DNA of 40,653 bases from Pseudomonadota bacterium. Its GTDB lineage: Bacteria > Desulfobacterota > Desulfarculia > Desulfarculales > Desulfarculaceae. The number at the start of each line of letters is the position of its first letter. Within the stretch, counting starts at the first letter, position 1. Position numbers and translations under genes: made by a program. The notes beneath the pieces are model-generated. The model worked only from the letters and a program-made list of their open reading frames with translations, did no database searches and had not been told where the DNA came from. Of the stretch, positions 3,120-8,756 are shown one piece after another. The stretch lies in the NCBI GenBank assembly GCA_018819925.1, contig JAHJPG010000101.1, forward strand, positions 1-40,653, in the 5' to 3' direction.

Positions 3120-5003
3120 CTAGGCCTCTTTGGCTCCCAGCACCTGGAACACCTCGATGGCCTCGGCCACGTTCTTCAGGCGCTGGGGGCCGATGCTTTC
3201 AAGGTCAAAGCGGTCCCCCACCCGCTTCGCGGTCTCCGGGCCGATGTATATCCGGCCCTCGGTGGCCAGGGCGCCGATGCGCGCGGCGTTGTTGGTCACC
3301 GACCCGCTGGCGGTGAAGGTCCAGCGGGTGCCGGCGAGGCCCTCGAAGCGGGAGCTGCCCACCAGGGCGGTGCCGGAGTTCACCCCGATGTTGATGGACA
3401 CCGGCTGGAAGCGACCGGCCAACTCCTGGTTGACCTTGGCCACCTTGCGCCCCACGGCCAGAGCGGTGTTCACCGCGTTCACGGCGTGCTGCACCGGGTC
3501 GTCGTCCTGGAAGATTATCATCAACCCGTCCCCGGCGGTCTCATTGATGTCGCCGTGGTTTTGGTAGATGTCGTCCAGGAAGCTGGAGAAATAGCGCTCG
3601 ATCAAGAAGTTCATGTCCTCGCCGGTCACCTGCTCGCTCATCTTGGTGTAACCGGCCACGTCCAGGAAAAGCACCGATACGTCGGTTTCGCGCTTGTTCA
3701 AGTCCGGGGCCTCGGGGGCCTCGTCGATGCGCGCCTTCACCGAGGCGGGCACGAACTTGCTCAGGGTGGTTTCGATGTTCTCCAAAAGCACGATGCGGTG
3801 CAGGCTGTCCTCCAGCTGCTGCTTTTTGCGCTTTAGCTCCTCCACATGGGCGTGCAGGTCGGTGGCCATGGTGTTGAAGGTGTGGGCCAACTCGCCTACT
3901 TCGTCGCCGGGGCGAATGCCGGTGACCCGGGTGAGCAGATCGCCGCTGGCCAGGCGCTTGGCCCCGCTGGTGAGCATCTTCACCGGCTTGGTGAGACCCA
4001 CCACCATGAGCAGCACCACAATCCCCATGATGGTCAGGCCACTCAGGGCGAAATAGAGCTGATGGCGGGTAAGATCGGCCACCGGGGCCAGGACCGCCTC
4101 CTCCGGGGCCACCACCCCAAAGCTCCAGCCCACTCCCTTCACCGGGGCGTAAGCCAGCCAGACGTCCTTTTTAGTCAGGGGGTCGTTGAGCCTGATCACC
4201 CCGCTGGCTCCGCGCACCATGCGCCTTCCCAGTTGGCGCAGCCCGGGGCGGTTCAGCTCCTCGGCCAGGGAAAAGATGCTCTGGCGCATGACCAACTCAT
4301 CTTTGGGGCTGGCCAAGAAATTGCCCTGACGGGTGATCAAAAAGGCGTAGCCTCCCTGGGTCACCGTCAGGGAGTGCACCTCCCGGCCCAGGTTGCCCAG
4401 GTCCACGTCGGCGGTGATCACCCCCAGCACCTTGCCGTCCTTGACCATGGGGGCCGAGTAGGTGGTCATGAGGATGTTGCCCGCTCCCTCGTCGTAGTAG
4501 GGCTCGCTCCACACAGGACGGCCCAGGAGGGCCGGCACCAAATACCAGTTTTGGCTGGGGTAGTCATAGACCGGGCTGTTGAGGTCCATGATCTTTAGCC
4601 CTTGGGGCGAGCGAAAGGCATAGGAGGAAAAGGCGCGCTGGTCCGGTGAGAAGGAATAGGGGGCCAGGGCCAGGGCCATGCCGTAGACCCGGGGGTTGGC
4701 CACCAGACTCTGGCTGATCAACTGGTTGGCCATGGTTTCGCTGGCCACACCCACAACCTCCAGGGTCACCGCCAGGTCCCGGGCCGGGGCGGACACCTTT
4801 TCCAGGCGGCGGGCCAATTCCGAGGCTTGGGAATTGGCCAGGGCCAGCAGGTGCTCCTGGCTGGAATCAAGCAAGGCCTGGGAGGCTTCCTGATGACTGA
4901 CCACGGCCATGGCCGTGGCCACCAAGGCCACCCCGCTGAGCACGAAGATGACGAAGCGGGCCCTGAGGCGCAGCCAGCGCGGCTTTAGTCCTTCGGAGGT
5001 CAC
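3120..5003 (-). CDS. dCache-HAMP transmembrane class III adenylate/guanylate cyclase
   Basis: A 627-residue membrane receptor cyclase. A short cytoplasmic tail and TM1 (about 17-35) lead to a large extracellular Cache sensor (about 40-300, with YDYPSQNWYLVPALLGRPVWS and ADVDLGNLG), then TM2 (about 312-335), a HAMP linker (TKPVKMLTSGAKRLASGDLL...) and a coiled-coil segment. The catalytic domain starts near 438: metal-binding Asp448 in LFLDVAGYT and Asp492 in TAGDGLMIIF, and the transition-state Asn/Arg in SVTNNAARIG (Arg575) are all present, so it should be active. ATP or GTP preference cannot be settled by eye. The start is a GTG with GGAGG upstream; its GTG overlaps the TGA of the binding-protein gene by 4 bp, which implies translational coupling and joint function. 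Confidence 0.93.
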   Translation of the reverse strand: MTSEGLKPRWLRLRARFVIFVLSGVALVATAMAVVSHQEASQALLDSSQEHLLALANSQASELARRLEKVSAPARDLAVTLEVVGVASETMANQLISQSLVANPRVYGMALALAPYSFSPDQRAFSSYAFRSPQGLKIMDLNSPVYDYPSQNWYLVPALLGRPVWSEPYYDEGAGNILMTTYSAPMVKDGKVLGVITADVDLGNLGREVHSLTVTQGGYAFLITRQGNFLASPKDELVMRQSIFSLAEELNRPGLRQLGRRMVRGASGVIRLNDPLTKKDVWLAYAPVKGVGWSFGVVAPEEAVLAPVADLTRHQLYFALSGLTIMGIVVLLMVVGLTKPVKMLTSGAKRLASGDLLTRVTGIRPGDEVGELAHTFNTMATDLHAHVEELKRKKQQLEDSLHRIVLLENIETTLSKFVPASVKARIDEAPEAPDLNKRETDVSVLFLDVAGYTKMSEQVTGEDMNFLIERYFSSFLDDIYQNHGDINETAGDGLMIIFQDDDPVQHAVNAVNTALAVGRKVAKVNQELAGRFQPVSINIGVNSGTALVGSSRFEGLAGTRWTFTASGSVTNNAARIGALATEGRIYIGPETAKRVGDRFDLESIGPQRLKNVAEAIEVFQVLGAKEA

Positions 5004-5989
5004 GGCTGCCTCCAGGCCTCGGCCACGAAATCCTTGGCCTCTATGGGCTCGGGGATGAAGCCCTGCTCCACCAGGACTCGGTTGACCTGTCTGAGATCAT
5101 AGGGCGAAAGCTGGCCCATGAGGGCCGTTCCCACCCGGTGAGTGTAAAGCTGCTGCATGCTTTTTAGCATCCAGCGCTGATGGGCCAGGTTGCTGGCCAG
5201 GTTGGCTTCGTTCACCCGCTTCATCACCGAGGCCAGGGCACGCTCTTGGTCAATAAAAGCCCGGCGCCATCCCTCCAGGCTGGCCTGCACAAAGGCCTGG
5301 CACACCTGACGGCGCTCCCGCCAGGTGTCCTCCATGGTGTAGACACCGTCTTCGGGAAAGTTGAGGCCGTGCTCGGCAAAGTCGAACACGGTGATCTCGT
5401 CGCGGTCCACGCCGGCCTGGTACAACTGGTGGTACTCGTTGTAGAACATGGCCGTGGCCGCCTCCACCGCCCGCTGCAGGAAAGGGGCCATGGACACGTT
5501 CTGGCTCACCTCGTCCACCCGTATTCCCAGTTTGGCGAACAGGGCCCGGGGGGGCACCGCGAACTGGCGCCGCCATAGCCCCACCTTGCGGCCGTCCAGG
5601 TCCTTGATCTGGCTGATGCCGCGGTCGTTGAACACCACCAGCATCAGGGCCGAGCGCTGGATAAGCTGGGCTAGGTTGACCAGGTCCACTCCCTTGGAGC
5701 GCATGACCAGGGCCTCGGAGAGCCAGCTCATGGCGAAGTCGCAGCGCAGGGTGGCCAACTCGCTAAGGGGGTCAATGCCGGGTCCGCCGGGCCGAATCTC
5801 CACCTCCAGGCCGGCCTGGCGGTACAGGCCCAGATCCTGGGCCAGGTAAAACCCGGCGAACTGGGCCTGATGCACCCACTGCAACTGCAGGCTCACCTTG
5901 GTAAGGGCGCCGGCGGTGGCCGGAGCCAGGAGCAGGGCGCAGACCACAAGCATGGCCGAGGCATATTTCAGTTTGCCCAGAAGGCGCAT
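5000..5989 (-). CDS. NMT1/THI5-like periplasmic substrate-binding protein
   Basis: A 329-residue solute-binding protein of the NMT1/THI5/SsuA type. A signal peptide (residues 1 to about 28, LVVCALLLAPATAGA) is followed by the family opening VSLQLQWVHQAQFAGFYLAQDLGLY, then EVEIRPGGPGIDPLSEL and the NDRGISQIKDLDGRKVGLW segment. Family members deliver thiamine-pyrimidine-like compounds, sulfonates, nitrate or aromatic acids to ABC transporters, but no permease or ATPase gene is adjacent. Instead the gene overlaps the receptor cyclase by 4 bp, suggesting that it works as the ligand-binding arm of that sensor. GGAGGT 9 bp upstream supports the ATG at 5989. The ligand is unknown. Confidence 0.88.
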   Translation of the reverse strand: MRLLGKLKYASAMLVVCALLLAPATAGALTKVSLQLQWVHQAQFAGFYLAQDLGLYRQAGLEVEIRPGGPGIDPLSELATLRCDFAMSWLSEALVMRSKGVDLVNLAQLIQRSALMLVVFNDRGISQIKDLDGRKVGLWRRQFAVPPRALFAKLGIRVDEVSQNVSMAPFLQRAVEAATAMFYNEYHQLYQAGVDRDEITVFDFAEHGLNFPEDGVYTMEDTWRERRQVCQAFVQASLEGWRRAFIDQERALASVMKRVNEANLASNLAHQRWMLKSMQQLYTHRVGTALMGQLSPYDLRQVNRVLVEQGFIPEPIEAKDFVAEAWRQP

Positions 5990-6075
5990 GTAGGCATTAC
6001 CTCCGGCTCCATGGTATATCCGCCGCCCCGGGCTGGCAAGGCCGCGCTGTAAGGGCTGTTACGGCTAAACAATAT

Positions 6076-6135: not shown

Positions 6136-6870
6136 ATGAGCAAGCAAACACCAAATAAACCCCAAAAACTTAAGGGGACTAAGCCCGTAGCTTCCGGCCT
6201 GCGTATGAAGCAGCTAATGGCCGCCACCGGCCTGCCCAAGTCCACCTTGCTGTATTACGCGGAGCAGGGGCTTTTGCCCCCGCCGGTGAAGACCAGCCCC
6301 AACATGGCCTATTATGACCCGGCCTGTGTGGAACGAGCCCGGCGCATAAAGCAACTGCAAAGCCAGCACCGCCTGCCTCTGAGCAAGATCAAGGTCGTTT
6401 TGGAGGCCCAGGACCGGGGTGAGGCGCCCGAGGCGCTCATAGCCCTGGGACAGGAGATATTCGGCCAGGAGCAGGGGCCTTTGTTGGGTAAGGAGGAGTT
6501 CCGCCGCCAGAGCGGCCTGAGCCGCAAGGCCCTGGAGGAGTTTCTGGCCGCCGGGCTCTTGCTGCCCCTGGAGCCAGGGCGCTTTAATCAGCAAGACCTG
6601 GCCATGGGACGGCTTTTGGCCCAGGCCTGGGCCCGGGGGGTCGGCCCCAAAAATCTGGCTTATTACAACCGCCTGGGGCAGCGGATCGTGGACGAGGAAA
6701 TGGCCCTGCGCCGCAGTTTGACCCAAGACCTTCCCCCGGCTGTCGATGCCGAGGTCACCCTGGCCCTCACCCAGGCCGCCCGGGCCATGCGGGGCTATGT
6801 CATCGACCGCCTTTTCCAGCACCGGGTGGCCGGAGCCCGCCACCTAAAGGACGAGGAGATGCTCTCGTGA
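6136..6870 (+). CDS. MerR-family-like transcriptional regulator
   Basis: A 244-residue protein with a basic N-terminal tail and a MerR-type winged helix at about 22-90 (MKQLMAATGLPKSTLLYYAEQGLLPPP, then a YYDPACVERARRIKQLQ wing and helix). A second HTH-like segment (KEEFRRQSGLSRKALEEFLAAGLLLP, about 117-143) repeats the same logic, so the protein may hold two MerR-like DNA-binding modules. No effector cysteine cluster is visible and the C-terminus (about 160-244) is helical, without a recognised ligand domain. It ends in a GTGA overlap with the membrane flavoprotein gene, so it is co-transcribed with the redox genes and is their probable regulator. The AAAGTG/CACTTT dyad upstream is a plausible autoregulatory site. 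Confidence 0.8.
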   Translation: MSKQTPNKPQKLKGTKPVASGLRMKQLMAATGLPKSTLLYYAEQGLLPPPVKTSPNMAYYDPACVERARRIKQLQSQHRLPLSKIKVVLEAQDRGEAPEALIALGQEIFGQEQGPLLGKEEFRRQSGLSRKALEEFLAAGLLLPLEPGRFNQQDLAMGRLLAQAWARGVGPKNLAYYNRLGQRIVDEEMALRRSLTQDLPPAVDAEVTLALTQAARAMRGYVIDRLFQHRVAGARHLKDEEMLS

Positions 6871-8756
6871 ACTCTGAGCGCCGGTGGGGTTTGCTGGGCT
6901 TGGCGCCCATCATGGCCTCTGTGGTTTTGATCGCCGTGGGAGAAGCGAGCGGCTGGCCCCTTGCCGTCGTCCGTTGGCTTTCCCTGCTGCTGTTGGCCGT
7001 TTCCCTGGCCGCCCTGATTCCCCTGCACCGGGCGGGCCGCGCCACGGCCATAAACCTGGGTTTTGGGGCATTTCTGCTGTTGGCCGCAGCCGGTTTCTGG
7101 CTGTGGCCCGATGGGCTGGGCCGCGCCCTGGCCGCCGGGCCCATCGCCTGGCTCTACTGGGTGCTTCTGGCCGGGGTAAGCCTGCCCTGGGCATTCGGCG
7201 CGCCGCCTTTCACCGAGGCCTTTGCCAAGCGCACCACCCCCGAGGCGGTATGGCAGACCGACATCTTCAAACGCATCAACCGCAATATGACCCTGGTGTG
7301 GTGCCTGCTGTTCTTGGCCGCCGCCCTCTCCGCCACCCTGGCAACGGTGTTGGACGCCCTCAAGGGCTCCATCGCCCAGGCCGTATGCACTGGGGCCATT
7401 CCCCTAGGCCTTATGCTGGGCATCGGGCTGCCCTTTACCAAAAAATATCCCGCCTATTACCAACGCAAGCTGGGGCTGGAGCCGGTGAGAGAGGGGGCCG
7501 AACCCCTTCCCGCCGATCAATCTCCGGCCCCGACTTCTGCGCCGGCCCCCGCGCCGCGCCCAATCCGGGAGGAAACCATGTCTGGACAAAAAACTATCGT
7601 GGCGATAAACGGCTCACCCCACGGCGGTATCGGCAACACCTCACAGATGATCGAGATGCTGCGCCCCACCCTGGAGGCCGAGGGCCTGGCCCTTGAGGTG
7701 ATAACCCTGCACGACAAGGAGATCGACTACTGCACCGGCTGCGCCCTGTGCCTGGAAAAGGGCAAATGCTGGATTCCCGATGACCATAGGGGCTTGGTGA
7801 AAAAGCTCCTGGACGCCGACGGCATCATCCTGGCCTCGCCGGTGTATTTCCTGCACGTCACCGCCCAGATGAAAACTTTCCTGGACCGCAGCCTGGCCTG
7901 GGGGCACAAACCCCGGGACACCTACAAGCCCGGCCTGGCCATCAGCGTGGCCGCCGCCTTCGAGGAGAAGGAGGTGGCCGACTACCTGGCTGGAATGCTG
8001 CACGTATATGGGGCTTTTTCGGTGGGCACCCTCACCGCCATGGCCACCGGCCCCGGCGGCTTCCTGGGCCGGGAGACGGTTCAGGCTCGGGCCCAGGACC
8101 TGGCCCGGGACCTGGCCCGGGCGGTCAATCAAAAGCGGCGCTATCCGGTTACCAGCCAGGAACTCTTCTTCTATTTACACATGGGCTGGCTGGTAAGCGC
8201 CAACAAAGACGGAGTGATGAAGGACGACTACCGCCACTGGGAGGAGAAGGGCTTCTTCCAGGGGTTCGAGAAGTACGTGAATCAACAATGGGCCGAAGTC
8301 GAGGGCCTGGGCGGGGAGGCCCGCGACGCCTGGATCAAGCAGATGATCGCCGATCGCAAGGCCCGCAAGGCAGGGCAAACGTCACCTCCAGCACCCCAGC
8401 CCCAGGAAGCCGAGGCCACCGGACCCCAGGCGGCCACCACCTGCCAAGAGCTTTTGGAGATGATGCCCCTGGGCTTCAACCCCGACGAGGCGGGCGATCT
8501 CAAGGCCTCGGTGCAGTTCGAGATAAGCGGCGGCGAGGAGTTCGTGGCCCATCTGGACATCGGCGGCGGCAAGTGCGTATTCGCGTCGGGGCCGGTGGAT
8601 AATCCCTCCCTGGTCATCAAGAGCCCGGCCGAGGTATGGCTGGCCGTGTCCCAGGGCCGATTAGACGGCCAGGCCGCCTTTATGAGTGGCAAATACCAGA
8701 CCCAGGGCGACATCACCTTGCTGATGCGCTTTAATAAGCTTTTTTCCAGCCGCTAG
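6867..8756 (+). CDS. Membrane domain - iron-sulfur flavoprotein - SCP2 fusion
   Basis: A 629-residue three-part protein. Residues 1 to about 205 carry some six hydrophobic segments of no family I recognise. A Pro/Ala linker (about 212-235) leads to a flavodoxin-fold NADPH-dependent FMN reductase/Isf-type domain (about 240-430): FMN loop INGSPHGGIGNTSQM, then the compact cysteine motif Cys289-x2-Cys292-x2-Cys295-x5-Cys301, which in Isf proteins binds a 4Fe-4S cluster, and SPVYFLHVTAQMKTFLDR. After a second linker, residues 526-629 form an SCP2 sterol-carrier-like domain. The start is GTG, overlapping the previous TGA, with AGGAG upstream. An internal ATG at 7578 (residue 238) is preceded by GGGAGGAAACC, an excellent ribosome binding site, so a soluble flavoprotein-SCP2 product may also be made. 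Function in electron transfer or lipid/quinone-linked reduction is inference. Confidence 0.85.
   Translation: MNSERRWGLLGLAPIMASVVLIAVGEASGWPLAVVRWLSLLLLAVSLAALIPLHRAGRATAINLGFGAFLLLAAAGFWLWPDGLGRALAAGPIAWLYWVLLAGVSLPWAFGAPPFTEAFAKRTTPEAVWQTDIFKRINRNMTLVWCLLFLAAALSATLATVLDALKGSIAQAVCTGAIPLGLMLGIGLPFTKKYPAYYQRKLGLEPVREGAEPLPADQSPAPTSAPAPAPRPIREETMSGQKTIVAINGSPHGGIGNTSQMIEMLRPTLEAEGLALEVITLHDKEIDYCTGCALCLEKGKCWIPDDHRGLVKKLLDADGIILASPVYFLHVTAQMKTFLDRSLAWGHKPRDTYKPGLAISVAAAFEEKEVADYLAGMLHVYGAFSVGTLTAMATGPGGFLGRETVQARAQDLARDLARAVNQKRRYPVTSQELFFYLHMGWLVSANKDGVMKDDYRHWEEKGFFQGFEKYVNQQWAEVEGLGGEARDAWIKQMIADRKARKAGQTSPPAPQPQEAEATGPQAATTCQELLEMMPLGFNPDEAGDLKASVQFEISGGEEFVAHLDIGGGKCVFASGPVDNPSLVIKSPAEVWLAVSQGRLDGQAAFMSGKYQTQGDITLLMRFNKLFSSR

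Follow-up and report, generated by a model that had tools for sequence, protein, structure and literature searches.

What does an NMT1-type binding protein do when its gene overlaps that of a receptor cyclase and no transporter gene lies beside the two? This question is raised by the window studied here, by which we mean the whole 40,653-nucleotide stretch of DNA that was analysed. A first-pass annotation had described an NMT1-type protein overlapping a dCache-HAMP-class III cyclase by GTGA, an arrangement that the open reading frames and Pfam searches confirm.

We propose that the binding protein and the receptor act as a two-protein periplasmic sensor. The NMT1 protein would bind a small molecule, the likeliest candidate being a nucleobase-like heteroaromatic, and once loaded it would dock on the receptor's dCache domain. 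HAMP would relay the resulting change to the cyclase dimer and so alter synthesis of a cyclic nucleotide that is likelier to be cGMP than cAMP. The same input would serve other outputs, usually a PP2C phosphatase beside partner-switching genes, with a cyclase as the version in the window. We give this reading, in which a ligand-loaded NMT1 protein docks on dCache and the output is exchangeable, a probability of roughly two in three; the export of the binding protein, the docking, the class of ligand, the preference for GTP and the effect of ligand on activity are the parts that we infer.

The gene pair and its surroundings

The pair is encoded on the minus strand, and its features are as follows.

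5000..5989, minus strand: NMT1/THI5-type binding protein, predicted periplasmic (open reading frame, 329 aa, ATG start)
3120..5003, minus strand: dCache-HAMP-class III nucleotidyl cyclase receptor (open reading frame, 627 aa, GTG start)
5000..5003, minus strand: GTGA overlap in the sequence, made of the receptor GTG start and the binding-protein TGA stop
4113..4877, minus strand: dCache domain, predicted periplasmic, receptor residues 43-297 (Pfam PF02743, E 1.3e-24)
3852..3995, minus strand: HAMP domain, receptor residues 337-384 (Pfam PF00672, E 2.5e-13)
3150..3695, minus strand: class III cyclase catalytic domain, receptor residues 437-618 (Pfam PF00211, E 2.9e-16)
6011..6039, minus strand: weak sigma-70-like promoter match (9 of 12), upstream of the binding-protein gene

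The binding protein matches the Pfam NMT1 profile (PF09084) over positions 2-216 of 216, with an E-value of 2.2e-36 and 126 bits (cut-off 20.5), and its PDB matches are 4nmy and the formylaminopyrimidine-binding protein 3ix1. Read by eye, its N-terminus is hydrophobic and of the Sec-signal type, without a lipobox cysteine, and we predict that the protein is exported to the periplasm. The receptor matches MCP-like PDC_1, dCache_1, HAMP and Guanylate_cyc, all above the Pfam cut-offs, and has no Pfam match to SpoIIE, the PP2C output of receptors of the RsbU/SiaA type. The single sigma-70-like match compares with 0.1 expected in shuffled sequence, which is not evidence of function.

The neighbouring genes encode MsrA, CobO and a cNMP-binding protein on one side of the pair, and MerR followed by an FMN-reductase/SCP2 protein on the other. 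As the first-pass annotation had stated, no permease or ATPase gene adjoins the pair, judging from the open reading frames and Pfam matches of the neighbourhood. A binding-protein gene linked to a receptor gene without transporter genes is the arrangement of a binding-protein-stimulated receptor.

Two of these neighbours have features of their own. The gene at 6867-8756 encodes a 629-aa protein with a hydrophobic N-terminal region followed by NADPH-dependent FMN reductase-like and SCP2 domains; it overlaps the upstream MerR-type regulator (6136-6870) and is kept in the genus. The gene at 1025-1498 encodes a small stand-alone cNMP-binding-domain protein whose position near the cyclase is kept in the window and four related genomes, and the classical phosphate-binding Arg of such domains appears by eye to be absent from it. 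We did not adopt this protein as the effector of the cyclase: its position is kept in the genus, but the genome has ten such domains.

Conservation of the pair and exchange of the output enzyme

The first-pass annotation had asked whether the pair is conserved in other genomes. The host is a relative of sulfate reducers, and its lineage has Desulfarculaceae MAGs as named relatives. We searched for the NMT1 subfamily in 60 relatives and then in 395 genomes sampled evenly from the phylum, all of these relatives being genomes or MAGs known from sequence alone. The subfamily is sharply bounded, with matches from 1e-221 to 1e-63 before the next drop to 1e-34, and it was found in 66 of the 395 phylum genomes. 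Seventy-six loci were fetched, one of which (L100) ends at a contig edge. Of the 75 that could be evaluated, 73 have a homologous dCache-HAMP receptor as the next gene downstream in the same orientation, across many families and with binding-protein identity down to 36%. The coupling of binding protein to receptor is thus well supported. The two loci without a receptor beside the binding protein (L144 and L147) belong to one genus, and their binding proteins might use an unlinked receptor.

Most of the gene junctions overlap, and -4 is the commonest offset in the wider set; single offsets are approximate, as start codons were picked by nearness to the preceding stop. The overlap is not a chance event, because the two genes persist with their order, strand and tight junction throughout the genus and well outside it. 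The trees of the binding proteins and of the sensors have a distance correlation of 0.94, with no permutation as high, a value to which shared descent contributes. The sensor pair is also not confined to one phylum, since the gammaproteobacterial plasmid pTs417 of Candidatus Thiodictyon syntrophicum carries four consecutive genes, for STAS, NMT1, dCache-HAMP-SpoIIE and an ATP-binding protein, with a sensor match of 5e-80. A reverse search with the sensor half returned the NMT1-linked orthologues together with two sensors, 49% identical, that have no adjacent NMT1 gene. These NMT1-less paralogous receptors are L175 (G008:C24) and L176 (G002:C25), and the latter adjoins xanthine-dehydrogenase-type genes and a STAS gene.

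The output domain is much less constant. Fifty-four receptors carry a SpoIIE/PP2C phosphatase and 18 a cyclase, with one cut off; the phosphatase count includes L061, where the phosphatase is a separate reading frame. The cyclase is found in all eight congeners, window included, and in one further genus (L055). In other genera of the family, for instance in the complete 3.66-Mb genome G009, that place is taken by a SpoIIE/PP2C phosphatase. What stood of the NMT1-cyclase pairing highlighted in the first-pass annotation is the dCache-HAMP partner; the cyclase is not the constant part, the output being usually a PP2C phosphatase, and we rejected the idea that the pair is cyclase-specific.

We then asked how the outputs are distributed on a tree built only from the sensor half, from which the output columns were omitted and which assumes that the sensor alignment is correct. 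The starred branches of this tree force at least three output changes. A single clade of all cyclase-bearing sensors is rejected (AU p = 6e-61), as is a single clade of the nine type-B cyclase sensors (p 2e-5). The cyclases themselves fall into two modules that are unrelated at close range, type A, which includes that of the window, and type B, whose catalytic modules group with those of HAMP-cyclases from adjacent genes in several genomes. At four loci (L102, L112, L129 and L131), type-B receptors adjoin one or two further HAMP-cyclases whose catalytic domains closely resemble theirs, which gives the impression that a neighbouring gene was the source of the output module. STAS and RsbW-like genes lie beside 24 of the 54 phosphatase loci versus none of the 18 cyclase loci, a contrast (Fisher p 3e-4, from a near-identical count) that is indicative only, the loci being related. 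The spread of the phosphatase output suggests that it is ancestral. The output was swapped while the input pair stayed, which marks the input pair as the evolutionary unit. Judged from the aligned genes, where the pair, its conservation, the output swaps and the intact catalytic residues can all be read, the conserved unit is the binding protein together with dCache-HAMP, and the output is exchangeable.

Ligand, sensor domain and predicted product

To what would such an input respond? Across 71 receptor-linked NMT1 proteins, the invariant or nearly invariant residues include Trp38, Gln41, Gln43, Gln108 and Trp139, as well as Tyr183-Asn184-Glu185, Glu213-Asp214-Gly215, Gly240-Trp241 and Gln271, and we regard these as putative pocket residues. 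All of the strictly invariant ones, bar one or two at most, recur in NMT1 proteins that belong to ABC transporters; among those compared, three are encoded in operons with dihydropyrimidinase. The conserved residues are mostly missing in NMT1-kinase and NMT1-GGDEF fusions, in the NMT1 protein paired with a Cache-HAMP-kinase and in the NMT1 protein that serves a transporter in the window genome.

In 10 of 37 genomes, xanthine-dehydrogenase-type genes are found no more than 10 kb from the pair, versus 0.73 expected from about one such gene per Mb (Poisson p 6e-9, which ignores relatedness). They occur near phosphatase-type pairs, their products do not reach the NCBIfam thresholds set for true xanthine dehydrogenase, and none lies near the pair in the window. 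An NCS2 xanthine/uracil-type permease and an MTA phosphorylase adjoin single pairs only. Because relatives from pyrimidine operons share the putative pocket residues, xanthine-dehydrogenase-type genes lie near pairs, and the chemistry of 3ix1 points the same way, a nucleobase-like heteroaromatic is our leading guess for the ligand, with the odds leaning slightly against it.

The sensor domain of the receptor might instead do the sensing. The solved sensors nearest to the window dCache are 3li8, 3lib and 3lic, and if this domain bound its own ligand directly, the binding protein would be an accessory that concentrates or scavenges the ligand, or a leftover from a lost transporter. The domain retains most of the dCache_1 pocket residues, with the positions of Y121, W128, Y129, Y144 and D173 (PctA numbering) almost invariant in the receptor family, and the two sensors from G008 and G002 that lack an adjacent NMT1 gene fit direct sensing as well. 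The dCache_1AA amino-acid-sensor motif, however, includes R126 of PctA (PMC10104139), and the position of this carboxylate-binding Arg is variable, with Gln151 in the window and Arg in 3 of 72 family members. We therefore did not class the domain as an amino-acid sensor, since the Arg of the full motif is missing even though the other positions are kept. The leftover version is also hard to reconcile with the 73 of 75 loci in which the binding-protein gene is still complete and next to the receptor gene despite the changes of output domain. Overall, we consider direct sensing by dCache improbable. AlphaFold2 models of the receptor (pLDDT 43, 5 sequences) and of the binding protein (pLDDT 41, 7 sequences) were too poor for use.

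Another explanation is that the binding protein works for an ABC transporter encoded elsewhere and shares no more than a transcript with the receptor, which would regulate something related. NMT1 proteins 33-37% identical to that of the window, with the same putative pocket residues, are encoded on plasmids of Proteobacteria, mostly in complete ABC operons, and dihydropyrimidinase is found in three of the five of these operons that are annotated. Because these relatives belong to ABC transporters, the subfamily is not purely sensory, and by its sequence the binding protein is common to the sensor pair and a transporter lineage. On an Azospirillum thermophilum plasmid (L179), the gene after an ABC operon with a related NMT1 protein encodes a methyl-accepting chemotaxis protein with HAMP. 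An ABC transporter elsewhere using this protein was also the counter-case named in the first-pass annotation, and we looked for it in the window genome, a draft about 96% complete, by family searches and in selected stretches. This draft has 16 BPD-type permease domains. Its two NMT1-type systems, C74 (binding protein, permease and ATPase) and C94, have binding proteins of their own, two other permease loci are molybdate/tungstate-like, and several weak NMT1 matches are TAXI-type proteins adjoining TRAP-like membrane proteins. We found no unpartnered NMT1-type permease in the draft and no near match to the pyrimidine-operon permeases in the transporter loci examined, where the best identity was 23%. 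An unlinked transporter is therefore the explanation that we consider very unlikely.

A further alternative keeps the two-protein sensor and reverses its sign: the unliganded binding protein would hold the receptor in one state, and ligand would release it, lowering the cyclic nucleotide. A precedent is Vibrio NspS-MbaA, where the outcome depends on the polyamine bound (PMC9993111). We find this unlikely, although less so than direct sensing; the sequence is compatible with either sign, and docking of the loaded binding protein on the receptor is the preferred reading.

For the output in the window, alignment with solved cyclases, including 2w01 (Cya2) and 3r5g, places the metal-binding Asp448 and Asp492 and the transition-state pair Asn571 and Arg575; all four are invariant among the aligned genus members, in keeping with the earlier report that both metal Asp and the Asn/Arg pair are retained. 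The purine-specifying positions are Glu488 and Thr564, which are kept in all aligned type-A cyclases. These positions hold Lys and Asp in adenylate cyclases; in guanylate cyclases the first is Glu and the second varies, Thr being among the residues that occur there (PMC4215837). In Cya2, Glu at the first position accompanies guanylate cyclase activity, and the E488K variant is an adenylate cyclase (PMC5995499). By this sequence rule, which is not infallible, the window cyclase, with Glu rather than Lys at the first position and a residue other than Asp at the second, is of the guanylate type. Because Glu488 and Thr564 fit the rule and the Cya2 precedent, cGMP is a likelier product than cAMP, and we extend this prediction to both the type-A and type-B cyclases. 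The first-pass annotation had proposed a change in cAMP or cGMP, and these two residues favour the latter.

Significance and comparison with known systems

Bacterial cGMP synthesis has few known inputs, and the pair, if confirmed, would offer a candidate signal for it. It would also provide a set of natural variants with one input pair driving several chemistries, useful for learning how signals from dCache-HAMP are interpreted and for sensor engineering, and the putative pocket common with transporters of pyrimidine-catabolic operons narrows the ligands to a small, concrete panel. The pair looks like a chemical sensor that can be detached from its output enzyme, perhaps one for nucleobases. 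Binding-protein-stimulated receptors have been reviewed as chemoreceptors, sensor kinases, diguanylate cyclases/phosphodiesterases and Ser/Thr kinases, a list from which class III cyclases and PP2C phosphatases are absent (PMC9602780); both would join it if our reading is confirmed. In the open-access literature, we found no NMT1 or other binding protein coupled to a class III cyclase. The strongest form of the proposal, in which a transporter-derived NMT1 protein and the receptor make up a phylum-wide, self-contained nucleobase sensor with a repeatedly exchanged cytoplasmic enzyme, and thereby provide the first class III (guanylate) cyclases and PP2C phosphatases under a separate binding protein, is less likely than not.

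How does the pair compare with systems already described? The ABC importers of the SsuA/TauA/ThiY kind also use NMT1 proteins, with a permease and an ATPase that the window neighbourhood lacks. The sister receptors of the window family, dCache-HAMP-SpoIIE/PP2C proteins often accompanied by STAS and RsbW-like genes, resemble the SiaA/RsbU type; the window receptor differs in having a cyclase and no adjoining STAS or RsbW-like gene, and we know of no binding protein for SiaA. Fusions of NMT1 to PAS-histidine kinase or to GGDEF likewise use NMT1 as a sensor input, but as one chain, and most of the residues invariant in the window family are missing from them. In the same lineage (L064-L069), NMT1 is joined by a single transmembrane helix to PAS, histidine kinase or GGDEF, and these proteins are only about 27% identical to the window binding protein. 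A further split NMT1 sensor, recognizable by a sequence signature of its own, is found at L150-L152 (G336, G180 and G285), where a different, lipoprotein-like NMT1 subfamily overlaps a Cache-HAMP-histidine kinase by four bases. Cya2 of Synechocystis shares with the window cyclase a class III catalytic domain and Glu at the first purine position, and differs in its CHASE2 sensor, in Gly instead of Thr at the second position and in having no binding protein.

In systems of the LuxP-LuxQ kind, a binding protein acts through a periplasmic receptor domain, as we propose here, although their output is a histidine kinase. The nearest parallel is NspS-MbaA of Vibrio cholerae and Sinorhizobium meliloti, which has overlapping genes and signals without transport through c-di-GMP (PMC9993111). 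NspS is PotD-like rather than NMT1, the MbaA output is GGDEF-EAL (c-di-GMP) rather than a class III cyclase, and the NspS-MbaA interaction has experimental support, whereas the window pair is known from its genes. In both cases, the gene for a soluble periplasmic binding protein lies just upstream of, and overlaps, that of a HAMP membrane receptor, and the output is the metabolism of a nucleotide second messenger. By analogy, NspS-MbaA is the closest working model for the window pair.
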